A DNA stretch of 64,000 nt, taken from contig NZ_MPKW01000005.1 of assembly GCF_009729415.1 (NCBI RefSeq), positions 186,001 through 250,000 of the forward strand, given 5' to 3'. Positions 1-64,000 of the stretch are shown piece after piece. A model generated the notes under the pieces. The model did not search any database. It was not told the origin of the DNA and was given only the letters and a program-made list of their open reading frames with translations. Source of the DNA: Mycolicibacterium sp. CBMA 234 (GTDB lineage: Bacteria > Actinomycetota > Actinomycetes > Mycobacteriales > Mycobacteriaceae). Position 1 is the first letter of the stretch. Each line of letters starts with the position of its first letter. The position numbers and the translations under genes are program-made.

Positions 1-1527
1 CGCATCGCCATCACCGAGGTCGCAACCGGCGCCGACTACACCTACCGGGAGCTGACCACGCGCATCGAGGCGTTCGCCGGTGCTCTGGCCGCTCGGGGAA
101 TCGGGGTCGGCGATGTGGTGGGCCTGCTGGCACCGAACAGCGCCGCGTTCGCCGTCGCTTTCCACGGCATTCTGCGGTCCGGCGCCACCGCCACGACCAT
201 CAACGCGTTGTTCACCGCCAAGGACATCGCCAAGCAGCTGACCGATTCGGGTGCGGTCGTGTTGATCACCGTCTCCGCGCTGGCACCCCAGGCGCTGGAC
301 GCGGCGACGGTGGTCGGGCTGCCCGCCGACCGCATCGTCATCCTGGACGGCCCCGGCGCCTCGTCGGACGGCCATCCGAACGCCGCCGAACTGCTCGACG
401 GCGCACCGCCGGCACCGCAGGTCAGCTTCGACCCGACGACCCATCTGGCGGCCCTGCCGTACAGCTCGGGAACCACCGGAAATCCCAAGGGCGTCATGCT
501 TACCCACACGAATCTGGCGGCGAACGTCGCGCAGATTCGGCCGATTCAGGCCATGGACGCCGACGACCGCGTGGTGGCGGTGCTGCCGTTCTTCCACATC
601 TACGGCATGACGGTGCTGCTCAACTCTGTGCTGCACGCGCGCGCCCGGCTGGTCATCATGCCGAGCTTCGATCTCGCCCAGTTCCTGGCGACCATCCAGG
701 ATCACAAGTGCACGTTCGCCTTCATCGCCCCGCCGGTCGCGGTGGCCCTGGCGAAGCACCCGATGGTCGACTCCTACCGGCTCGATTCGCTGAAAGGCCT
801 GATGTCGGGCGCGGCGCCGCTCGACGACGACCTCGGGATGGCCGTTGCCGACCGGCTCGGCTGCCCCATCGTGCAGGGCTACGGCATGAGTGAACTGAGT
901 CCGGTGAGCCACTGCATGCCGTTCGACGGCGGCCGCGAACTCGTCGGTGCCGTTGCGCCGCTCAGCTCCTGTGGCTGGACGGTGCCGGGCGCCGTCAGCA
1001 AGATCATCGACCCTGAGACCGGCGCCGAAATCGGCCTGCCCGAACACGGTTTGAGTGAAATCGGCGAATTGTGTTTCCGGGGCCCCAACGTGATGGCCGG
1101 CTATCTCAACAACGACGAGGCCACCCGCGAGACCATCGACTCCGACGGTTTCCTGCACACCGGCGACCTGGCGCGCGTCGACGCCAGCGGGTGCGTCTAC
1201 ATCGTCGACCGGCTCAAGGAGCTGATCAAGTACAAGGGCTACCAGGTACCGCCCGCTGAACTTGAGGCAGTGCTGCTCACCCACACCGGCATCGCCGACG
1301 CCGCGGTGGTCGGAGTCCGGGACCCGGAATCCGGTGAGGAAGTGCCCAAGGCGTTCGTCGTCCTACAACCGGAGTCTGTGTTGTCCCCCGCGGACATCAT
1401 GGAATTCGTCGCCGCGCAGGTCGCCCCGTACAAGAAGGTCCGGCAGGTCGCGTTCATCGACGCGATCCCAAAGTCCGCGGCAGGCAAAATCCTGCGCCGC
1501 GAGCTGCGCGGCATCCGCGAGATTTAG
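1..1527 (+). CDS. Acyl-CoA synthetase / 4-coumarate-CoA ligase family protein, 5' partial
   Basis: Adenylate-forming ligase that would activate a carboxylic acid as acyl-AMP and then transfer it to CoA. The frame is open from base 1, so the N-terminus lies outside the window; 508 residues are visible. The AMP-binding loop YSSGTTGNPKG (460-492), QGYGMSE (874-894), HTGDLA (from 1156) and the C-terminal KSAAGKILRREL with its catalytic lysine (from 1471) are all intact, so the enzyme looks functional. The length and motif set fit the 4CL/FadD group; the substrate cannot be read from sequence. It is convergent with the next gene and overlaps its stop by 4 bases. Confidence 0.93.
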   Translation, partial: RIAITEVATGADYTYRELTTRIEAFAGALAARGIGVGDVVGLLAPNSAAFAVAFHGILRSGATATTINALFTAKDIAKQLTDSGAVVLITVSALAPQALDAATVVGLPADRIVILDGPGASSDGHPNAAELLDGAPPAPQVSFDPTTHLAALPYSSGTTGNPKGVMLTHTNLAANVAQIRPIQAMDADDRVVAVLPFFHIYGMTVLLNSVLHARARLVIMPSFDLAQFLATIQDHKCTFAFIAPPVAVALAKHPMVDSYRLDSLKGLMSGAAPLDDDLGMAVADRLGCPIVQGYGMSELSPVSHCMPFDGGRELVGAVAPLSSCGWTVPGAVSKIIDPETGAEIGLPEHGLSEIGELCFRGPNVMAGYLNNDEATRETIDSDGFLHTGDLARVDASGCVYIVDRLKELIKYKGYQVPPAELEAVLLTHTGIADAAVVGVRDPESGEEVPKAFVVLQPESVLSPADIMEFVAAQVAPYKKVRQVAFIDAIPKSAAGKILRRELRGIREI

Positions 1528-2318
1528 GGCTCGTTCACCAGGCCGACGTCGCGCGCGGCTTTGGCCTGGCGATACCCGACGGCAAGGCCCACCAGCGGCA
1601 TCAGAATCAGCCCGGCCAGCCCGAACAGGTCTCCCCGCAGCTCGGCCGGCTGAATGGCGGTCCACACCGGGATGAGGGTGTGCTCGATGGTCTGCAAATC
1701 CGAGGGCGCCGCGTCGCGCGGCGGTGCCACGGGCAGTGGCTGCGGTTGGGCGGCGGGCAGCGCAACGTCCAGCAGCGCCGGAGGTCCCACCTGGGCGGTG
1801 GCCGAGCCGACATGATGTTCGGCTACGACGATCGGCAGCGGCGGCACGCGCATGGCCGTGGCTGCACCGGGATTGGTCGCGGGATTATTGGCACCCGACG
1901 ACCACGAACCGCCGTTGGATTGTGCCGACGCAGTACTCCCGTTCCCGTTCCCGCTGCCGTTCCCGCTGCCGTTGCCGTTATTGCCATTCCCGTTGTTGCC
2001 GTTGCCGTTGCCATTGCCGTTGTTGCCACCCGTTTTCGGCGCATTGTTCCCGGCGTTCCCGCGGGCCGCGGACCCGCCGTTACCCGAATTGCCACCCTGG
2101 CCGTTGCCGGAGTTACCTGAGCCGTGATTGCTGCCGCCATTGCCGTGGGAACCGCCTGGGGCGGCCCCGGCAATGGCCGTCGGCGAGCCTGACACCAGCA
2201 CAAATGCGGCCACGGCAAGGGTCGCGCTACCTCGCAGCGTTCGGCTCCGGCGCACGTCCGCCCCCGATCGACTTCGTTGCCAGGTGCCACCCCGAAGCAC
2301 CCTCTGGGCTCTCATCAT
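1524..2318 (-). CDS. Secreted Gly/Asn-rich low-complexity protein with C-terminal membrane anchor
   Basis: 264 residues, family not recognised. A basic N-terminus and hydrophobic stretch (about residues 30-50, ending in an AIAGAAP-type cleavage site) look like a Sec signal. Residues about 55-130 are almost entirely Gly and Asn (GNG/NGN units with some Ser), then comes a Pro/Ala-rich segment. A hydrophobic helix near residues 230-247 is followed by RQAKAAR, a plausible membrane stop-transfer. I infer an exported, anchored envelope protein. The GNN-rich DNA makes long reading frames on every strand; the signal peptide and tail make this frame the credible one. It resembles PE_PGRS proteins only in composition, since no PE domain is present. 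Confidence 0.72.
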   Translation of the reverse strand: MMRAQRVLRGGTWQRSRSGADVRRSRTLRGSATLAVAAFVLVSGSPTAIAGAAPGGSHGNGGSNHGSGNSGNGQGGNSGNGGSAARGNAGNNAPKTGGNNGNGNGNGNNGNGNNGNGSGNGSGNGNGSTASAQSNGGSWSSGANNPATNPGAATAMRVPPLPIVVAEHHVGSATAQVGPPALLDVALPAAQPQPLPVAPPRDAAPSDLQTIEHTLIPVWTAIQPAELRGDLFGLAGLILMPLVGLAVGYRQAKAARDVGLVNEP

Positions 2319-2380
2319 GGCACGGCACCGCGGCCTGAATCGACAGTTCTGTCAGCGTGCTACGACAATCGGTGCGCCAC

Positions 2381-3391
2381 TCACGCGGCGTCGGGGTCCT
2401 CGGCAATGCCATTTGCCGCCTTGCGCAGCAGAGCCAACGCGGTGCGGGCCCATTTCTCCGTCGCCCCGGCCAGACCGCACGCCGGGGTCAGGCCAATGCG
2501 TTCGCGCAGGACCGCGCGCGGAAAACCAAGTCGGTCGGTGACGCTCGCGGCGGCGGCCGCGACCTTCTCCACCGGCACCGGACGTTCGGGCGCGACGCCC
2601 GGCAGCACCCCCAGCATGACGGTCCGGCCCATTTCGACCCACTCACCGATGCCGTCCAGGTCGGCCGCGGACAGCTTGGACGCGTCCACCGAGATGGCCT
2701 CAAAACTGGTGCGCGCCAGCATTTTCCACGGCATGTCGGCGGCGCACACGTGGATGGCGGCCGCACCACCGACGGTCGCGAGGCACTCGTCGAGCAGGTT
2801 CGCGGCCAGTAGTTCGTCCACAGGTGCCACTGGCGACATCCGGGTCACGCCGGCGAGACGCCCCGCCAGCGCCGCGGGCAGCGAGGGTTCGTCGTACTGC
2901 ACCACGACCTCGGCGTCGCACCGCCGCGCCACCTCCGCACGATGACGCGCGACACCCTCGGCCAATGAACCGGCCAGGTCACGCAGCGCACCCGGGTCGG
3001 TGATGGCCCGGTGGCCGCCGGACAACTCAAGCTCGGCGGCCAGCGTCAGCGGGCCCGGGACCTGCACCTTGATGGTCCGCCCCGTGCCGCGCAGCCCGGC
3101 CTTCTCCCACGCTTCTTCGAGCGCGTCGACGTCCTCGTCGAGCAGACCGGCGGCCCGGCGCACGACGCTGCTGCGCCCGGGCGCGATGCGATAGCCGCGC
3201 GGGACGGTGTCGATGCCGATGTCGACGAGCAGGGCACCGGCCCGGCCGATCATGTCGGCGCCGATGCCGCGGGCCGGCAGCTCCACCAGGTGCGGCAGCG
3301 CGGGCAGCTCACCGACGACGACTGCCGCCGCTTCCCGGGCGACCGTCCCCGGCCACGAGCCGATACCGGTTGCCTGGGCGAAAACAGTCAC
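2381..3391 (-). CDS. MetE C-terminal-domain-like (cobalamin-independent methionine synthase-like) protein
   Basis: About 336 residues, the size of a single MetE catalytic half rather than full MetE (about 750). It begins VTVFAQATGIGSWPGT and carries QYDEPSLPA and HVCAADMP segments typical of the UROD/MetE TIM-barrel fold, with metal-ligand-type His/Cys in HVCA. I chose the GTG at 3391, 10 bases past the ArsR stop; an upstream extension would run into the ArsR gene. It is the third gene behind SRPBCC and ArsR. The M. tuberculosis counterpart is probably Rv3015c, function unknown. True methionine synthase activity is uncertain because the N-terminal half is absent. Confidence 0.82.
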   Translation of the reverse strand: MTVFAQATGIGSWPGTVAREAAAVVVGELPALPHLVELPARGIGADMIGRAGALLVDIGIDTVPRGYRIAPGRSSVVRRAAGLLDEDVDALEEAWEKAGLRGTGRTIKVQVPGPLTLAAELELSGGHRAITDPGALRDLAGSLAEGVARHRAEVARRCDAEVVVQYDEPSLPAALAGRLAGVTRMSPVAPVDELLAANLLDECLATVGGAAAIHVCAADMPWKMLARTSFEAISVDASKLSAADLDGIGEWVEMGRTVMLGVLPGVAPERPVPVEKVAAAAASVTDRLGFPRAVLRERIGLTPACGLAGATEKWARTALALLRKAANGIAEDPDAA

Positions 3392-56222: not shown

Positions 56223-56984
56223 CTAGACCTGACCCGAGTCTTCAATGCAGTAACGACACGTGTCGTTTTTGACTCCGCGATTTGTGTGATACCTCGTATG
56301 CGCGCTGCGTCGGCTCGACGGCATGGGCCGACCCTTTCGAACCGCTGACATTTTGGCGCGCGTTTCCACACTGGCACTTCGGCCAAAGTTCGGGTTGCCA
56401 GCACCTTTCATTTTTTCGGAAAGCTTGGCCTTAGCGTCGTCCGACATCACATGACCGAAACTGGGGTGGTCAGCACCAAACTTCCCGTAATTCGGATTGT
56501 CAGCACCAATGTTCGTACCTTTGCGCGCGGCCGACCACTTCGCTCGTTGCTCGGCGGAGTGCTCCCGCTGATAGAACGGGGCCTCCTCACCGAATCGGCT
56601 GGGAATCTTACGACCAGTCGATCGAATCCTCGCCGCCTCCCGCATCTCCGCGGTCCACACAACGCCCGTCGGTCCGAGCCCGCCGTCCGCGAGGTTCAGC
56701 AGTGGATGCCCCTCCTGCCGCAGTAGGGCTATCCATGCGATTTCGGCCTCGCCAAGCTCGTCGAGCCCGTCTGTCCAGTCAAACGGGTCCACGATCAGAT
56801 CTTCCCGCTGCTGCTTTCGCAACCAGTCATAGAACGGCGTTTTCCTCCCGGCCCCAGCGACTTTCAGATGCTGCCGAAGCCGCAACTGCGCGGTTTTCGT
56901 CGTGAGGCCGACATAGCGATAAACGGACTCCGACCGGAGCCTGACCCCATAGATCAAGCCTCCGGTCGGAGTTCTACCAGTCAT
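56223..56984 (-). CDS. GIY-YIG endonuclease with NUMOD3 DNA-binding motifs (homing-endonuclease-like)
   Basis: 253 residues from ATG 56984. GIY-YIG nuclease: LIYGVRL (Tyr12), YRYVGL (Tyr24), Arg35/37, His39 and catalytic Glu81 in EAEIAW. Two NUMOD3-type segments follow (NPNYGKFG to KMKG at about 163-194, NPNFGRSA to RKG at about 197-218). The tail has H229, H233, C243 and C246, a possible zinc site. The five 60-base lines from 56221 count 162/300 G+C (54%), well below the neighbours (e.g. 72% in the line at 48301). Same strand as nrdE, 25 bases after its stop; suggests a free-standing homing endonuclease or a domesticated phage gene. Confidence 0.86.
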   Translation of the reverse strand: MTGRTPTGGLIYGVRLRSESVYRYVGLTTKTAQLRLRQHLKVAGAGRKTPFYDWLRKQQREDLIVDPFDWTDGLDELGEAEIAWIALLRQEGHPLLNLADGGLGPTGVVWTAEMREAARIRSTGRKIPSRFGEEAPFYQREHSAEQRAKWSAARKGTNIGADNPNYGKFGADHPSFGHVMSDDAKAKLSEKMKGAGNPNFGRSASVETRAKMSAVRKGRPMPSSRRSAHTRYHTNRGVKNDTCRYCIEDSGQV

Positions 56985-57009: not shown

Positions 57010-59178
57010 CTACAACATGCAACTGACGCAACCGTCCACGGCCGTGCCTTCCAGAGCCATCTGCCGCAGCCGGATGTAGTACAGCGTCTTGATGCCCTTG
57101 CGCCAGGCGTAGATCTGGGCCTTGTTGACGTCGCGGGTGCTGGCGGTGTCCTTGAAGAACAGCGTCAGCGAAAGCCCTTGGTCCACATGCTGAGTGGCTG
57201 CCGCGTAGGTGTCGATGATCTTTTCGTAGCCGATCTCATACGCGTCCTGGTAGTACTCCAGGTTGTCGTTGGTCAGGTACGGCGCGGGGTAGTAAACGCG
57301 GCCGATCTTGCCTTCCTTGCGGATCTCGATCTTCGACGCGACCGGGTGGATCGAGCTGGTCGAGTGGTTGATGTACGAGATCGAACCCGTTGGCGGGACG
57401 GCCTGCAGGTTCTGGTTGTAGATGCCGTGCGCCTGCACCGACTCCTTCAGCGAGCGCCAATCATCTTGCGTCGGAATGTGAATGCCGGCGTCGACGAAGA
57501 TCTGGCGCACCTTGTCGGTCTTCGGCGCCCACTCCTGGCCGGTGTACTTGTCGAAGAACTCACCCGACGCGTACTTCGACTTCTCGAACCCGCCGAACTT
57601 CGTACCGCGTTCGATCGCAATGAGATTGGAGGCCCGCAGCGCGTGGAACAGAACCGTGTAGAAGTAGATGTTGGTGAAGTCGATACCCTCGTCGGAGCCG
57701 TAGTAAATCTGCTCACGAGCCAGGTAGCCGTGCAGGTTCATCTGTCCCAGGCCGATGGCGTGAGAGTCGTTGTTGCCCTGCTCGATCGACGGCACCGACC
57801 AGATGTGAGTCTGATCCGACACCGCGGTGAGGGCCCGGATCGACACCTCGATGGTCTGCGCGAAGTCCGGCGAATCCATGGCCTTCGCAATGTTCAGCGA
57901 ACCCAGGTTGCACGAGATGTCCTTGCCCACCTTGGCGTAGGACAGGTCCTCGTTGAACACCGACGGCGTCGACACCTGCAGGATTTCCGAGCACAGGTTC
58001 GAGTGCGTGATCTTGCCCGCGATCGGGTTGGCCCGGTTCACCGTGTCCTCGTACATGATGTACGGGTAGCCCGACTCGAACTGCAGCTCGGCGAGGGTCT
58101 GGAAGAACTCGCGGGCCTTGATCTTCGTCTTGCGGATGGCGCCGTTGTCGACCATCTCGTAGTACTTCTCGGTGACGTTGATGTCGGCGAACGGCAGCCC
58201 GTAGACCTTCTCCACGTCGTACGGCGAGAAGAGGTACATGTCCTCGTTCCTCTTCGCCAGCTCGAACGTGATGTCCGGGATCACGACACCCAGCGAGAGC
58301 GTCTTGATGCGGATCTTCTCGTCGGCGTTCTCGCGCTTGGTGTCGAGGAAACGGTAGATGTCGGGGTGGTGCGCGTGCAGGTACACCGCACCCGCGCCCT
58401 GACGGGCTCCGAGCTGGTTGGCGTAGGAGAACGAGTCCTCTAGCAGCTTCATGATCGGGATGACGCCCGAGGACTGGTTCTCGATGTTCTTGATCGGCGC
58501 GCCGTGCTCACGAATGTTGCTGAGCAGCAACGCAACTCCGCCGCCGCGCTTGGACAGCTGCAGCGCCGAGTTGATGGAGCGGCCGATGGACTCCATGTTG
58601 TCCTCGATGCGCAGCAGGAAGCAGCTCACCGGCTCGCCGCGCTGCTTCTTGCCCGAGTTGAGGAACGTCGGGGTGGCCGGCTGGAACCGGCCGTCGATGA
58701 TCTCGTCGACCAGCTTCTCGGCCAGGTCGGTGTCGCCGGCGGCCAAAGTCAGGGCCACCATGACGACGCGATCCTCGAAGCGCTCGAGGTAGCGCTTGCC
58801 GTCGAAGGTCTTCAGCGTGTAGCTGGTGTAGTACTTGAACGCGCCCAAAAACGTTGGGAAACGGAACTTCTTGGCGAACGCCCGGTCCAGCAGCTGCTTG
58901 ACGAAGTTGCGGCTGTACTGGTCGAGCACCTCGCGCTCGTAGTACTCCTTCTCGATCAGGTAATCGAGCTTCTCGTCCTGGCTGTGGAAGAACACCGTGT
59001 TCTGGTTCACGTGCTGCAGGAAGTACTCCCGCGCCGCGAGCACATCCTTGTCGAACTGGATATTGCCATCCGCGTCGTACAGGTTGAGCATCGCGTTGAG
59101 AGCGTGGTAGTCGCTCTCACCGGGCAGCGCGTGTGCCGTGGCGGCTACCGGTTCTGCAGCTGTGACGGTTGGTGGCAC
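57010..59178 (-). CDS. nrdE: Class Ib ribonucleotide reductase large subunit NrdE
   Basis: 722 residues from GTG 59178 with AAGGA 8 bases upstream; overlaps the nrdI end by 34 bases. Normal NrdE length, with no intein or intron: [29 protein letters not shown], and C-terminal GCVSCML (redox thiols served by NrdH). Reduces NDPs to dNDPs with NrdF2. Counterpart of Rv3051c. Confidence 0.97.
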
Positions 59179-59588
59179 GAGAGTTCCTTCCAGAAATCTT
59201 CCAGACCCTCACGAACGGCGGCGACGTCGTCCGGGGTTCCCATGAGTTCGAAGCGGTAGAGGTACGGAACACCGCACTTGCGGGAAACCACGTTGCCCGC
59301 GTACGCGAATTCAGCACCAAAGTTGTTGTTACCCGCGGCAATGACGCCGCGAATCAACGACCTGTTGTGTTCATTGTTGAGAAAGGCGATGACCTGCTTG
59401 GGCACGTAGCCGCCGTCGTTGACGTCCGGGGTGGACCGGCCGCCGCCATAGGTCGGCAACACCAGGACGAAGGGCTCGTCCACCTCGATGCGGCCGTGCA
59501 GGGGAATCCGGGTGGCCGGGACACCCAGCTTCCGAACGAACCGGTGGGTGTTCTCCGACACGCTGGAGAAGTAGACGAGATTGCTCAC
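59145..59588 (-). CDS. nrdI: NrdI flavodoxin-like protein
   Basis: 147 residues from GTG 59588 with a GGAGGAGAGGGAACA leader. Flavin loops [36 protein letters not shown]. Supplies oxidant for Mn-tyrosyl radical assembly in NrdF. Between nrdH and nrdE. Confidence 0.95.
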
Positions 59589-59619
59589 TGTTCCCTCTCC
59601 TCCCCCGGTTGATTGCTTT

Positions 59620-59859
59620 CTAGGCGGTGACCGCCACTGTGCTGAGCGCCTTGATCCGGTCCGGACGGAAGCCCGACCAGTGCTCGCCGTCGGCCACCAC
59701 AACAGGGGCCTGCAGGTACCCGAGTGCCATCACGTAGTCACGAGCTTCGGTGTCGACGCTGATGTCGACCTTCTCGTACGCGATGCCCGCCTTGTCCAAC
59801 GCCTTGTAGGTGGCGTTGCACTGCACACATGCCGGCTTGGTGTACACGGTGACGGTCAT
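59620..59859 (-). CDS. nrdH: NrdH glutaredoxin-like redoxin
   Basis: 79 residues from ATG 59859 (AGAGGAG 10 bases upstream). [20 protein letters not shown] gives the CxxC site. Electron donor to NrdE. The frame runs on upstream but only this part is a redoxin. First gene of the nrdHIE operon. Confidence 0.95.
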
Positions 59860-60375
59860 CTCGGTACGACTCCTCTGTAAAAGGCCTGGAAGCTGAACTG
59901 AATATGGCTGGCAACTGACGGGAAACAGCTTTCCGCTGATATCTCCATCCGGATCAGCGGCCCGGCAACCCCGGAAATTCCCGAATTTCCGGTCGTCCCG
60001 AGCCGCTCGATCAGTACGTCCGAGAATCCCCGTCCGACTGACTTTCCGGCCCCGGCCGACCCTCAAATCGTTGGGGTCTGTCGGTTCGCCAAACACTACA
60101 CCTAGTGGCCGACAAACCGAAGCGATACAAGATGTTCCGAACAACATTCGTGAAATTCCCAGGTCGCAAGGCCAACACCAGGGCATTCCCCCGGCGTGTC
60201 GCACATCACACTTGAGAGTGTGTCGCGCTCCAACTACCGGTTTAGCACCAGCCACCGACAACTTTCGGCAACGCGCCGCCCCGAGGCCGCGCGGGCCTGC
60301 CGGGCCAAAACCCCCAGCTACGCCGATTTCGGCGTATTGAGCCCCGCCGATCTGGTACAAGCGTGACGCGTGTGG
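59860..60375. other. 516-base intergenic region upstream of nrdH
   Basis: No gene supported. It holds the nrdHIE control region on the minus strand, including the NrdR-box pair at 60061-60108, and the 3' flank of the sigma-Rieske operon. Long frames on both strands have no start, signal or family motif I trust. Confidence 0.7.
60061..60108. promoter_or_regulatory. Tandem NrdR-box-like palindromes
   Basis: Two 16-base 6-4-6 dyads start 32 bases apart: CCTCAAATCGTTGGGG (60061) and ACACTACACCTAGTGG (60093). The second contains CACTA-N4-TAGTG. NrdR boxes of this form and spacing repress nrd operons at high dNTP/ATP. About 200 bases before nrdH. Confidence 0.55.
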
Positions 60376-60753
60376 TTACTGCGATCGGGCGGCCCGCACT
60401 CCCACGGCCCACATCCCCACCGCCAGCACGGCCACCACTTCGGCCACCACACTGAGGACCGCATACGGTACCGGCTCGAGGCCCGTCTCCACGAATCCGA
60501 ACAATCCGACGGTGCGCGACAGCGCGAAGGCGCCCAACGCCCCCGCCGACAGGAGGCCCGCCGCCCACGCGAACCACCGCGGGGCGCCCGCCGCCAGCAG
60601 CACCCCGACCGCACAGAACGCCGAGGACTGCAGCAGGAAGGCGGTCCCGATATCGGGAATGTGTCGATACCCGTGTATGTAGAGGTACGCGTGGATCAGG
60701 CCGCTCGCCAGCATGGCCACTGCGATCACCAGGCGGTAGACGACGTTCGTCAC
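60376..60753 (-). CDS. Four-helix membrane protein of the sigma-Rieske operon
   Basis: 125 residues, about four transmembrane helices. GTG start at 60753 overlaps the metallophosphoesterase stop (GTGA). The first helix region holds several His (GLIHAYLYIHGYRHIPDIG), suggestive of metal or heme/quinone contact, though unproven. Family not recognised; it appears to belong to the same operon. Confidence 0.82.
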   Translation of the reverse strand: MTNVVYRLVIAVAMLASGLIHAYLYIHGYRHIPDIGTAFLLQSSAFCAVGVLLAAGAPRWFAWAAGLLSAGALGAFALSRTVGLFGFVETGLEPVPYAVLSVVAEVVAVLAVGMWAVGVRAARSQ

Positions 60754-61673
60754 AGCAGGGTCCGTTCCTTGAGCGCCAGGGTGTGCTGGCCGGTCTGGTA
60801 GCTCACCTCACGGACGCCGAGCGCGTCGTGCAACTTGCCGGCCGGCAACGTCACCGGTTTCGGCGCCGGCCCGTCGCCGGGATGCGGCAACGGATACGCG
60901 GTGGTCGTACCGCTGTGGAAGGTGATGTTGCCTTCGGTCTTCGAAAATACCTGGTGCACATGGCCATTGAGGCAGGTCACCGACGCGAACCGGCGCAGGT
61001 AGCTCAGCGCCTGCGTGGCATCGTCTGTCCCCCAACCCCAATCGGGATACATCGCAAACAGCGGGATGTGGCTGAACACCACAATCGGCGTATCACTGGA
61101 CAGCCCGGCGACGTCCTTCTCGACGAATTCGAGTTGATCGACCCCCAAATGGCCGAGCTTCTTGAGGTTGAGCGTGTTCACCAGCGCGATGACGTGCACG
61201 CCCGCGATATCGAAGCTGTACCAGCCGTCGCCGCGGGTGCCCGCGCCGAAAGTCTTGCGGTACTTGGCTCCGGCGTCGTCGGCCGTATCGTGTTCGCCCG
61301 GCACGGTGAAGACGTGCGGCGTCCGCAGACTGGTCATCATCTGCCGGACCTGGTCGAACTGCTGTGGGGTGGCCAGATGGGTGAGATCACCGGTGTGGAT
61401 GACGAAATCCGGCGTGTAGTCGAGGCGGTTGACAGTGTCGATGGCATGGGTGAACGAGCCGGCGACGTCGGTGTTGGCCGCGCCGGTGAAGCCAATGTGG
61501 CTGTCGCTGACCTGCGCGAAGCGCAGGGTGGGCCGCGCCGCCGGTCCAGACGGGCTACCAGCTACGTGCGACAGCACTTCCCCACCGACCACCGTCAACC
61601 CGACAGCGGCGCCGAACCACGCTGTGTGACGGAGCAATTGGCGCCGGTTCATCTGCTGCGGGTCGTCGTTCAT
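60750..61673 (-). CDS. Exported calcineurin-like metallophosphoesterase
   Basis: 307 residues. Twin-arginine signal NRRQLLRHTAWFGAAVGL. Dimetal site: DSHIG, HTGDLTH, PGEHD, FSHIPLF, GHVHQV, so a functional phosphodiesterase or phosphatase outside the membrane. Overlaps the cupredoxin stop by 4 bases and the downstream membrane protein start. Confidence 0.93.
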   Translation of the reverse strand: MNDDPQQMNRRQLLRHTAWFGAAVGLTVVGGEVLSHVAGSPSGPAARPTLRFAQVSDSHIGFTGAANTDVAGSFTHAIDTVNRLDYTPDFVIHTGDLTHLATPQQFDQVRQMMTSLRTPHVFTVPGEHDTADDAGAKYRKTFGAGTRGDGWYSFDIAGVHVIALVNTLNLKKLGHLGVDQLEFVEKDVAGLSSDTPIVVFSHIPLFAMYPDWGWGTDDATQALSYLRRFASVTCLNGHVHQVFSKTEGNITFHSGTTTAYPLPHPGDGPAPKPVTLPAGKLHDALGVREVSYQTGQHTLALKERTLL

Positions 61674-62128
61674 TGGACTACCACCGTTCCGTGCATGAAG
61701 GGGTGAATACCGCAGACGTACGCGAAGGTGCCGGGCGTCGCGAAGACGTAACTGAAGGTGGCCCCGGAACCCATTGTCGGAGAACGAAACTGGCCGCCTT
61801 CGGCGACGACGTTGTGGGGGTCTTCGTCGTGGTTGGTCCAGGTCACCGTCGTACCGGCCGGCACTGTCAGGGTCGCCGGCGCGAAGGCGAAGTTGTCGAT
61901 GTTGACCGCGTTCGGCCCTGCCGGAGCCGGTGCCGGGTGGCCAGATTCGGGCGGCGACATGGTCATCGACCCCATCTCAGGCATCGAGCCGGTACTCGCG
62001 AGCCCCGGCGTGGCGCTCAGATCAGAACTGAAAACCGGTGTGGGTGCGGAGCTTTGCGGTGCTGTCGACGTGCAGGCGGCCAGCAGCAGGGCAGCGCCGC
62101 AGAGCGCCGCCAGGGATCGTCGCGACAC
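61670..62128 (-). CDS. Cupredoxin (plastocyanin-like) lipoprotein
   Basis: 152 residues from GTG 62128 with GGAGG 8 bases upstream. Lipobox LAAC (Cys19), a Met/Pro-rich linker, then a type-1 copper domain with ligands His105, Cys139, His142 and Met145 (DPHNVV, YVCGIHPFMHG). Anchored electron carrier. It has its own promoter copy P2 and is coupled to the phosphoesterase. Confidence 0.93.
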   Translation of the reverse strand: MSRRSLAALCGAALLLAACTSTAPQSSAPTPVFSSDLSATPGLASTGSMPEMGSMTMSPPESGHPAPAPAGPNAVNIDNFAFAPATLTVPAGTTVTWTNHDEDPHNVVAEGGQFRSPTMGSGATFSYVFATPGTFAYVCGIHPFMHGTVVVQ

Positions 62129-62156
62129 GACGGGTACCTCCGTAGTCGTCGGGATC

Positions 62157-62173
62157 GGGTGCGCTGCGCACCC
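62157..62173. repeat. Inverted repeat in the Rieske-cupredoxin gap
   Basis: GGGTGCG-CTG-CGCACCC, perfect 7-3-7 dyad, between promoter P2 and the cupredoxin start. Could be an operator or an mRNA leader stem. Confidence 0.5.
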
Positions 62174-62181
62174 TCACCAAC

Positions 62182-62204
62182 AGATACGTCGGCGGGTTAC
62201 ACAC
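62182..62204 (-). promoter_or_regulatory. ECF-type promoter P2 (cupredoxin-phosphoesterase-membrane gene set)
   Basis: Minus strand GTGTGTAACCC (62204-62194), 7 bases, TATCT (62186-62182). Matches P1 in both sequence blocks and spacing. 54 bases before the cupredoxin start; overlaps the end of the Rieske gene. TGTAAC is an ECF-like -35. Confidence 0.75.
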
Positions 62205-62205
62205 C

Positions 62206-62910
62206 TCAGGCCGGTTGGCTCGGAGGGGTCGGTGCGAACACCTCGATCACGCCGCCGACCTCGCGAACATCGAACTTCGGCAACGGTTTTGGCGCAATCG
62301 GCAACTGGTGGGTCAGAACGTGACCGTCTGTCGCGAACGACGTGGAATGGCACGGGCAGCGCAGCCGGTCGTCCGGCGCGTCGAACCACAGCCGGCAACC
62401 CTGATGGGTGCAGACGCCCGAAATGCCCTGTACGCGCCCGTCGACCCGGCGCACAAACCCGACGACGGTGCCCAGGTCGAACGGGTGCACGGCACCCTCG
62501 GACACCGCCGCGCTGTCGGCCACCTTCTGCCAGCTGCCCGAGGTCGGGACCAGCTCCTGGCTCGCGGTGTCCGAACCTGTCGGCGCCCCGCGTCCGCCCA
62601 CCAGCGTCCGGTCGACCGCCACCGCCGCGACTGCGGCACTGGCCGCCGCCGACGTGCCGACGATCACCTGACGACGATTGGCCCGCAGCCATCCGGGTGG
62701 TGCCGCCGCGTCGCCGTCGAATTGCCCGGCGAGCCGGTGTTGCAGATCGGCGAGGAACTCCGGACGCGGCTCGTCGACACCAGGGCGCGCCGCCTGCAGA
62801 TCGATGGCCGTCCGCATCTGTGCGGCGTCGAAGTCGTCGGGCTTGAAGCCCGCCGGCTTGCGTCCGCGCAGCAGATCGTCGAGGTACCGGCGCAACCCAC
62901 GCGCGTTCAT
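62206..62910 (-). CDS. Membrane-anchored Rieske [2Fe-2S] protein, anti-sigma-like architecture
   Basis: 234 residues. Residues 1-78 are soluble and charged (LRRYLDDLLRGRKPAGF; LADLQHRLAG), then one membrane helix (about 81-100), then an external Rieske domain with Cys167/His169 and Cys185/His188 cluster ligands and Cys172-Cys187 as the usual disulfide. The ATG overlaps the ECF sigma stop. Cytoplasmic N-domain plus external redox domain directly behind a sigma gene suggests a redox-sensing anti-sigma factor; a simple electron-transfer subunit is the alternative. Confidence 0.88.
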   Translation of the reverse strand: MNARGLRRYLDDLLRGRKPAGFKPDDFDAAQMRTAIDLQAARPGVDEPRPEFLADLQHRLAGQFDGDAAAPPGWLRANRRQVIVGTSAAASAAVAAVAVDRTLVGGRGAPTGSDTASQELVPTSGSWQKVADSAAVSEGAVHPFDLGTVVGFVRRVDGRVQGISGVCTHQGCRLWFDAPDDRLRCPCHSTSFATDGHVLTHQLPIAPKPLPKFDVREVGGVIEVFAPTPPSQPA

Positions 62911-63452
62911 GGCTGCCCCTTCTCGTTGATCTGAGCCGCCAGCCGTAAAGCCCGGTGCTGCAACACCTTTGCATTGGCGACGGTGACACCCAGCTCGGCC
63001 GCGGATTCCTTGATGGACCTGGTCTGGAGGAATCGCAGCTCCAGTATGCGTCGATAGTTGTCGGGCAAGGCCTCCAGCACCGTCGCGACACGCTCAGGCG
63101 CGGTGCTGATGGATTGTTCGGACTCCGGCGGCGCCGCGATGTCTGGGTCGATCTCGGTGATCTCCCGCCCCATCGTTTCGCGCCAGTGCGCGGCCAGGAC
63201 CGTCCGCGCCGTGCTCCGCAGATAGGACCGCACCTCGGCGGCACTGGCCGTCAGCCGCAGCGGCCGCAGCGCCGCCAGGAACACCTCGGCGGTGAGGTCC
63301 TCAGCATCAGCCTGGTTGCCGACGCGCGCATAGATGGTGCGGTACACCCACCTGGCGTTGTCCTGGTAGACGGATTCCCAATCGGGATAGCGCGAATCCG
63401 ACGAGACCACGCGCAGTGGTGGTCGGTGCACAGGGTCACGCTGCGCAGACAC
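62907..63452 (-). CDS. ECF RNA polymerase sigma factor of the Rieske-cupredoxin operon
   Basis: 181 residues from GTG 63452. Region 2: YQDNARWVYRTIYARVGNQA, DAEDLTAEVFLAAL; region 4: LPDNYRRILELRFLQTRSI, KESAAELGVTVANAKVLQHR. Overlaps the Rieske gene (ATGA). Promoter P1 lies 56 bases upstream; since P2 repeats P1, autoregulation is likely. Confidence 0.92.
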   Translation of the reverse strand: MSAQRDPVHRPPLRVVSSDSRYPDWESVYQDNARWVYRTIYARVGNQADAEDLTAEVFLAALRPLRLTASAAEVRSYLRSTARTVLAAHWRETMGREITEIDPDIAAPPESEQSISTAPERVATVLEALPDNYRRILELRFLQTRSIKESAAELGVTVANAKVLQHRALRLAAQINEKGQP

Positions 63453-63507
63453 ATCGGCCCCGTCTCATCGGTGCGGCCCGGCACGCCCCGGAGCCACTTC
63501 ACCAGGT

Positions 63508-63530
63508 AGATAGCCGCCAGGGTTACACAC
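63508..63530 (-). promoter_or_regulatory. ECF-type promoter P1 (sigma-Rieske operon)
   Basis: Minus strand GTGTGTAACCC (63530-63520), 7 bases, TATCT (63512-63508), 56 bases before the sigma start. Overlaps the end of the PucR-type gene. Same two blocks and spacing as P2. Confidence 0.75.
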
Positions 63531-64000
63531 AGTCGTCGCCAGGCGAATCCAGCAGCCGGTCGCCGAACTGGCTGCACAACAACAGCGCGACTTCCACGTC
63601 CAGCCGGTCATCCTCGATGGGCCGGCCACGGCGTTCGATCGCCCGCTGGACCCGATACTTGACTGAATTGGTGTGCAGATGCAGCTCTTCGGCCGCAGCC
63701 TTGTTGCTGCCACCCGCCTTCAAGAAAGCCTGCAGCGTCTCTCGGAGACGCTGGTCACTATCGGTCGAACAGGCCAGTGGGCCAAGCACTTCGGTGGCCC
63801 ACGCCGACAGCGCGTCGACATTCGATCCCAGCAGCGCCGCGAGTGCGATACCGCGGTGGCTGAACGCGGTGAACCGGCGCCGCTGCGGGCCCGACGCCAC
63901 GGCGACAGTGCGGGCGTCTTCGGCCTGCCGGTAGGACAGCCGGAAGCCGGCGACGCCGGACTGTGCGGTACCCACGGCCACATACGGGCCGTCGTCAGGC
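63523..64000 (-). CDS. PucR/CdaR-type HTH regulator, 5' partial
   Basis: The C-terminal 158 residues are visible; the frame stays open to the window edge. PYVAVGTAQSGVAGFRLSYR, QAEDARTVA and the HTH LQAFLKAGGSNKAAAEELHL, HTNSVKYRVQRA are the PucR/CdaR tail. Target genes unknown; it lies upstream of, and on the same strand as, the sigma-Rieske operon. Confidence 0.88.
   Translation of the reverse strand, partial: PDDGPYVAVGTAQSGVAGFRLSYRQAEDARTVAVASGPQRRRFTAFSHRGIALAALLGSNVDALSAWATEVLGPLACSTDSDQRLRETLQAFLKAGGSNKAAAEELHLHTNSVKYRVQRAIERRGRPIEDDRLDVEVALLLCSQFGDRLLDSPGDDCV

Follow-up and report, generated by a model that had tools for sequence, protein, structure and literature searches.

A 64 kb stretch of the Mycolicibacterium sp. 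CBMA 234 genome (hereafter the window, whose numbering is used for all locus coordinates) contains two copies of the motif GTGTGTAACCC-N7-TATCT: one ahead of a gene for an extracytoplasmic function (ECF) sigma factor, the other ahead of a cupredoxin gene. We regard the two copies as one and the same conserved site, retained by the sigma gene and by the copper operon when the genes change place; they are likely to be promoters read by the ECF sigma factor, and the extended Rieske protein encoded immediately behind it is predicted to be its membrane-bound anti-sigma factor. We place the probability of this reading at about 0.62. The genes lie on the minus strand in the order PucR-type regulator (its end only), ECF sigma factor, Rieske protein, cupredoxin, metallophosphoesterase and small membrane protein (Table 1).

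The two matching sites were first reported in a first-pass annotation of the window, and both are present as exact copies on the minus strand. They are the only matches in the 64 kb, even when up to three mismatches are allowed. The distances given for them also hold: from 63508 to the GTG at 63452 is 56 bases, and from 62182 to the GTG at 62128 is 54. Both copies had been said to overlap the end of the preceding gene; this is true of the sigma copy, which takes in the TAA stop codon at the end (63523) of the PucR-type gene, but not of the cupredoxin copy, which begins one base past the Rieske stop codon (gene end 62206). Shuffled windows gave a mean of 0.15 motif matches, and two matches were reached in one of 100 shuffles. 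A search of the 6.14-Mb genome, as the annotation had proposed, returned two exact matches to the 21-base core of the motif, both at this locus. We considered and rejected a wider regulon in this genome: the 20 near-matches at up to two mismatches look like noise, because the reversed-pattern control gave 38; two places carry a single mismatch.

The second proposed comparison, that of orthologous loci, shows the motif to be conserved. The comparison set consisted of 108 non-redundant loci, eight duplicates and L082 (the same place as L081) having been dropped, and the scan matrix drew on 94 sites from the first loci, with 58 loci kept out of matrix building. A site precedes the sigma gene in 103 of the 108 loci; the cupredoxin gene was found in 102 of them and has a site ahead of it in 98 of these. 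The loci share descent, and the counts are not independent. Among the held-out loci the corresponding figures are 54/58 and 52/54, and the matrix found no match in 172,875 shuffled bases. The matrix site is lacking from five sigma genes (L063, L115, L118, L119 and L133) and four cupredoxin genes (L019, L021, L085 and L086), with weaker sites present in L019 and L021. A count made free of the matrix gives the same picture: TGTAAC-N9-TAT occurs 195 times in the 604,435 bases of the loci, whereas 13 other spacings between N4 and N17 give 0–12 occurrences and the reversed pattern 0–1. Simple chance as the source of the sites is thus rejected by the window shuffles, the controls of the 17-base genome search described below, the scan of shuffled bases and the spacing counts.

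Shared descent alone is an unlikely cause of the conservation, because the flanking upstream bases carry little information and because the site moves with the cupredoxin gene. Bases −25 to −2 hold at most 0.3 bits ahead of the sigma gene and at most 0.75 bits ahead of the cupredoxin gene (where the Rieske gene ends), whereas the motif itself is saturated. In 35 loci the cupredoxin gene is inverted and lies on the opposite strand, upstream of the sigma gene; the site accompanies it in 32 of these, often so that two sites stand back to back. In L021, where the gene is also inverted, the stretch after the Rieske gene yielded no site. The cupredoxin gene is displaced by roughly 1.3–1.5 kb in L093, L110 (both inverted too) and L140, with a site directly before it each time.

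Further genes carry the site. Where another gene occupies the place behind the Rieske gene, an extra site often precedes a member of a family of small secreted proteins (L013–L015, L083–L088 and others) of 74–115 residues that share the signature CTVTxVH ... YVDxxC; among 243 sites, 29 are followed by this CTVT-type signature, and 15 matched none of the patterns used to assign targets. Three members of the family were scanned against Pfam and gave no match above the cut-off. Extra sites also precede TatA genes in L093 and L130 and a DoxX gene in L133. TatA is a revealing target, given the twin-arginine motifs of both the Rieske protein and the phosphoesterase. The number of sites can be larger still: L130 (G345) has four, and includes a second copy of the sigma gene (oriented 898–1458, minus strand) that is divergent from the TatA gene, the latter having a motif copy of its own; L016 (G078) also holds four copies (oriented 833, 843, 2207 and 2482), one of them divergent. 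In three decayed loci (L143 in G251, L144 in G280 and L145 in G358) no sigma gene was found and the Rieske gene is truncated or broken, and a copy of the motif remains; in L143 and L144 a gene that by eye resembles aldehyde dehydrogenase lies upstream.

Rieske proteins of this type were found at E <= 1e-15 in 169 of 396 sampled Mycobacterium species, that is, in about four in ten; in three or more of these the copy is truncated or broken. A 17-base form of the motif, TGTAACCC-N7-TATCT-N-TTGG, has one match each in 41 of the 396 genomes and, compared by eye, all 41 are among the 169 Rieske-positive ones; over the same genomes both the reversed pattern and a spacer one base longer gave no match. 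All sigma-positive genomes (76/198) are Rieske-positive, again as compared by eye. At the 17 loci whose Rieske match leaves the extension uncovered, no such sigma gene lies within the flanking 1.5 kb of each side, the flanks being shorter at some contig ends. Several other genera of the same family also carry the Rieske protein. In a sample of 396 genomes from across the phylum, only one beyond the genus matched at E <= 1e-20. This is G765, which belongs to another actinomycete family and whose sigma gene is 58% identical over 157 residues. Here (L081, reverse strand 1468–3054) two tandem extended Rieske genes stand behind one sigma gene. The sites recur: TTGTAACCC...TACCT before the sigma gene and GCGTAACCC...TATCT after the second Rieske gene, ahead of a different membrane-protein gene.

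Together these data strongly support shared control of the sigma–Rieske pair and the cupredoxin operon, as the first-pass annotation had proposed: the site is conserved, it keeps to the cupredoxin gene when that gene is inverted or displaced, and it is found again beside the sigma gene of a distant actinomycete. What does not fit simply is the pairing of TGTAAC (bases 1–6 of the motif) with TATCT (bases 16–20) as −35 and −10 elements. Passages of PMC3420878 and PMC8315932 support the view of TGTAAC as a known ECF −35 box: they give the ECF16 consensuses tGTAACc-N16-CGAA and (T/C)GTAAC-N17-CGAA, respectively. The geometry, however, is not that of a normally spaced ECF promoter. The halves are separated by N9, whereas the normal ECF spacing is about 16–18 bases; if TATCT is the −10 element, then GTAACC falls at about −25 to −20, which brings it some 9 bp, or roughly one turn of the helix, nearer to the start than a −35 box would be.

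The short spacing could mean that the site is an ordinary ECF promoter of the BldN, ECF16 or SigD type, with GTAAC as −35, G[GA][TC] at bases 24–26 as −10 and TATCT as a conserved element of the spacer. The trinucleotide does peak at this position (55% of 223 sites, against at most 23% at 13 other offsets), and the arrangement has precedents in the consensus passages for BldN (CGTAAC-N16-CGTTGA; PMC2375139), for ECF16 as quoted above, and for Corynebacterium glutamicum SigD (GTAAC and GAT; PMC6338062). Nonetheless we think it rather unlikely: TAT is better conserved than the proposed −10, and transcription would start near base 34, downstream of an ATG at base 27 that 14 of the 91 lipobox-bearing cupredoxin genes have as their sole admissible start. 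An in-frame ATG at base 27, beginning 7 bases after TATCT, is present in 29 of the 96 genes for cupredoxins and in 18 of the 28 for small secreted proteins; of 103 sigma genes, 18 have one at base 28. Where the 14 bases ahead of the base-27 ATG were inspected, they are the motif itself and include no Shine-Dalgarno sequence. Because two unrelated target families often start at a fixed ATG behind TATCT, the pattern suggests leaderless mRNAs that would begin at base 27, with TATCT at −11 to −7 acting as the −10 element. The cupredoxin gene of the window starts further down, behind a GGAGGT, so that there the compact and the normally spaced arrangements both fit. A sigma-A type promoter was also sought and rejected: there is no match to its consensus in 59800–64000, and TANNNT does not fit because T follows TATCT in only 2 of 226 sites.

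Alternatively, the site could be an operator, bound by a separate transcription factor encoded elsewhere that co-regulates the sigma–Rieske pair and the copper operon, the sigma factor having other targets or none here. The N9 spacing is too short for a normal −35/−10 pair, and its near-constancy suggests one rigid protein or complex binding both halves, whose centers lie about 1.4 turns apart. Against this, tGTAACc is the ECF −35 box described in the passages of PMC3420878 and PMC8315932, G765 has the site next to its sigma gene as well, and start codons at a fixed distance from TATCT are as expected of a promoter. Furthermore, no other regulator gene was seen as a constant neighbor: the PucR-type gene has matches in 9 of the 108 loci, all with Rieske identity of at least 86%, and other neighbors were given no systematic search. 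We consider an operator improbable, and suppose that here the sigma factor itself reads the site. On these precedents the GTAAC half is a genuine ECF-type box; they give a hint of kinship with BldN, ECF16 and SigD, although no proof of membership in any of these groups.

The protein encoded behind the sigma gene is a likely anti-sigma factor for it, a role that goes beyond anything proposed in the first-pass annotation. The sigma protein (181 residues) fits the ECF class (group IV), with PF04542 at residues 29–92, PF08281 at 121–170 and no further domain. At all 108 loci its stop codon and the Rieske start overlap by 4 bases (ATGA in 92, GTGA in 16), an adjoining and overlapping arrangement of the kind expected of a membrane anti-sigma gene. 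The Rieske protein consists of an extension of about 78 residues, a twin-arginine signal with a hydrophobic run, and the Rieske domain, a layout that fits a predicted cytoplasmic N-terminal part, one membrane segment and a sensor outside. Its Rieske assignment is borne out by the CxH ... CxxH ligands, the Cys pair and the fold. AlphaFold2 models, made from a first alignment of 93 rows (the window protein plus 92 of 145 matches) and a second of 77, place helices in the extension at residues 3–14, 26–40 and 50–65. R33, A35, F52 and L56 are among the residues of the extension that do not vary. Across the first alignment R79 is present in 93/93 rows and R80 in 92/93, and residue 192 is Phe in 92/93. 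High-potential Rieske proteins have a tuning Tyr at the matching position.

The extension goes together with the Rieske domain: among the matches listed (of 967), 118 of 120 relatives of the extension also have PF00355, as do 25 of 25 in a second search. The names given to the listed database matches are Rieske, ferredoxin, b6-f subunit, 2Fe-2S and hypothetical protein, and none of those listed is called an anti-sigma factor. One of 20 extension sequences matches PF16751 (RsdA_SigD_bd), at an E-value of 0.0019, below the Pfam cut-off; the window protein lacks this match, and in the profile search no known anti-sigma profile fits it. Searched against PDB sequences, the extension matched neither RsbN nor any other anti-sigma chain, a second search giving seven matches at chance level; NCBIfam returned weak, unrelated matches only. 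No structural match to its fold was found among 19 aligned chains, a comparison of little weight. In the open-licence literature we found no description of a Rieske/sigma unit of this kind, and the accessible passages of PMC5445863, PMC3174227 and PMC6922518 do not link the two.

A different role for the Rieske protein must be weighed here, namely that it is an electron-transfer partner of the cupredoxin which shares the operon by chance, the sigma factor being controlled in some other way. Both the Rieske domain and the cupredoxin are electron carriers, and the failure of the window protein to fit a known anti-sigma profile is as this role would have it. It accounts poorly, however, for a conserved extension that goes with the sigma gene and is predicted to lie in the cytoplasm, for the overlap of the sigma and Rieske genes at every locus, and for the fact that the cupredoxin operon shifts its place while the sigma–Rieske pair stays fixed. 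We judge this role unlikely.

If the Rieske protein is an anti-sigma factor, a simple cycle can be envisaged. The N-terminal extension would tether the sigma factor to the cytoplasmic side of the membrane, with the [2Fe-2S] domain outside. A change outside the cell (oxidation of the cluster, metal attack or loss) would alter or destroy the Rieske protein, possibly via regulated proteolysis. The freed sigma factor would fire site 1, renewing sigma and anti-sigma factors together, and site 2, from which the cupredoxin, phosphoesterase and membrane protein would be made; its targets in relatives would further include the sites before the small secreted proteins, the TatA gene and the DoxX gene. 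A bolder version, in which the sensor is a Rieske [2Fe-2S] domain exported by the twin-arginine translocation (Tat) pathway to the outer face, and the sigma factor fires compact promoters that have GTAACC about one helical turn nearer the start than a −35 box and often give leaderless mRNAs, is tentative, and we lean somewhat against its holding in full. Our best inference is a deeply conserved sigma/Rieske signaling unit with its own class of promoter, larger than the first-pass annotation described, in which the sigma factor is the reader and the Rieske protein the guard.

Table 1. The sigma–Rieske–cupredoxin locus: positions of sites, genes and protein segments in the window.
Feature	Position	Strand	Basis or remark
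Site 1, GTGTGTAACCC-N7-TATCT before ECF sigma gene	63508..63530	−	Exact motif; predicted transcription start near 63501
ECF sigma factor, 181 residues, regions 2 and 4	62907..63452	−	Pfam PF04542, PF08281
ATGA shared by sigma stop and Rieske start	62907..62910	−	Sequence; possible translational coupling
Extended Rieske protein, 234 residues, candidate membrane-bound anti-sigma factor	62206..62910	−	PF00355 at residues 126–200
Rieske N-terminal extension, residues 1–78, proposed sigma-binding part	62677..62910	−	Three helices predicted by AlphaFold2
Twin-arginine signal and hydrophobic segment, Rieske residues 79–103	62602..62676	−	R79/R80 conserved in alignment
Rieske [2Fe-2S] domain, residues 117–226, predicted extracytoplasmic	62233..62562	−	
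Site 2, GTGTGTAACCC-N7-TATCT before cupredoxin gene	62182..62204	−	Exact motif; predicted transcription start near 62175
GGAGGT, Shine-Dalgarno-like, ahead of cupredoxin GTG	62136..62141	−	Sequence
Cupredoxin lipoprotein, 152 residues	61670..62128	−	PF00127, PF13473; lipobox-like LLAAC (sequence)
Calcineurin-like metallophosphoesterase, 307 residues, twin-arginine N-terminus	60750..61673	−	PF00149; RR motif (sequence)
Small hydrophobic membrane protein, 125 residues	60376..60753	−	No Pfam family

The cupredoxin assignment rests on PF00127 (2.1e-11) and on type 1 copper ligands (DPHN ... CGIHPFM). Downstream of the locus, on the minus strand at 57010–59860, are genes that by eye resemble nrdH-nrdI-nrdE (a glutaredoxin-like protein with CVQC, a flavodoxin-like protein and a 722-residue ribonucleotide reductase chain). 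Adjoining nrdE on the same strand (56223–56984) is a frame of 253 residues that by eye is like a GIY-YIG homing endonuclease with NUMOD-like repeats.

If the proposal is correct, an iron-sulfur domain on the outside of the cell joins the known anti-sigma sensors, as a new way of sensing redox conditions there; the copper/phosphoesterase operon gains a regulator; and the promoter geometry becomes directly testable against the limits of RNA polymerase. In fold, ligands, Cys pair and twin-arginine signal the protein resembles the exported Rieske proteins of b6f/bc1 complexes and arsenite oxidase, but it differs from them in its N-terminal extension and its sigma-linked operon, and no gene for a bc1 or oxidase partner adjoins it in the window. 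Among anti-sigma proteins, a [2Fe-2S] cluster is described for RsmA of S. coelicolor and RshA of M. tuberculosis in the relevant passages of PMC3427169; there, however, the RshA cluster sits on cysteines and RsmA is a HATPase_C-type protein with HX3CX2S, whereas here a Cys2-His2 Rieske center is predicted outside the membrane. The GTAAC box is shared with SigD, for which passages of PMC6338062 describe a putative autoregulated sigD-rsdA operon in mycobacteria, and its membrane anti-sigma factor is released by proteases, according to a passage of PMC11175481; the −10 differs, and the SigD regulon of C. glutamicum comprises cell-envelope genes and not copper or redox proteins. ECF16 (Brucella BcrS, Bradyrhizobium EcfF) offers the same tGTAACc box and such a promoter before its own sigma operon, and has been tied to hypochlorous acid (HOCl) and reactive oxygen (PMC8315932 and PMC3420878); by contrast, its −10 is CGAA-like at N16–17, and the passages of these papers mention no Rieske protein for it.

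Of the solved structures, 6dxo_A is nearest in sequence to the sigma factor; it belongs to the ECF subfamily, and we take it to be BldN. The anti-sigma factor of Streptomyces BldN, RsbN, which has a class III anti-sigma domain, is membrane-anchored (passage in PMC8103513) and binds via three helices (PMC7406223, in a passage that has the two protein names swapped). The GTAAC box is common to both units, and the Rieske extension is also predicted as three helices. The differences are N9 to TATCT here as against N16 to CGTTGA in BldN promoters and, as the outside part here, a Rieske domain.
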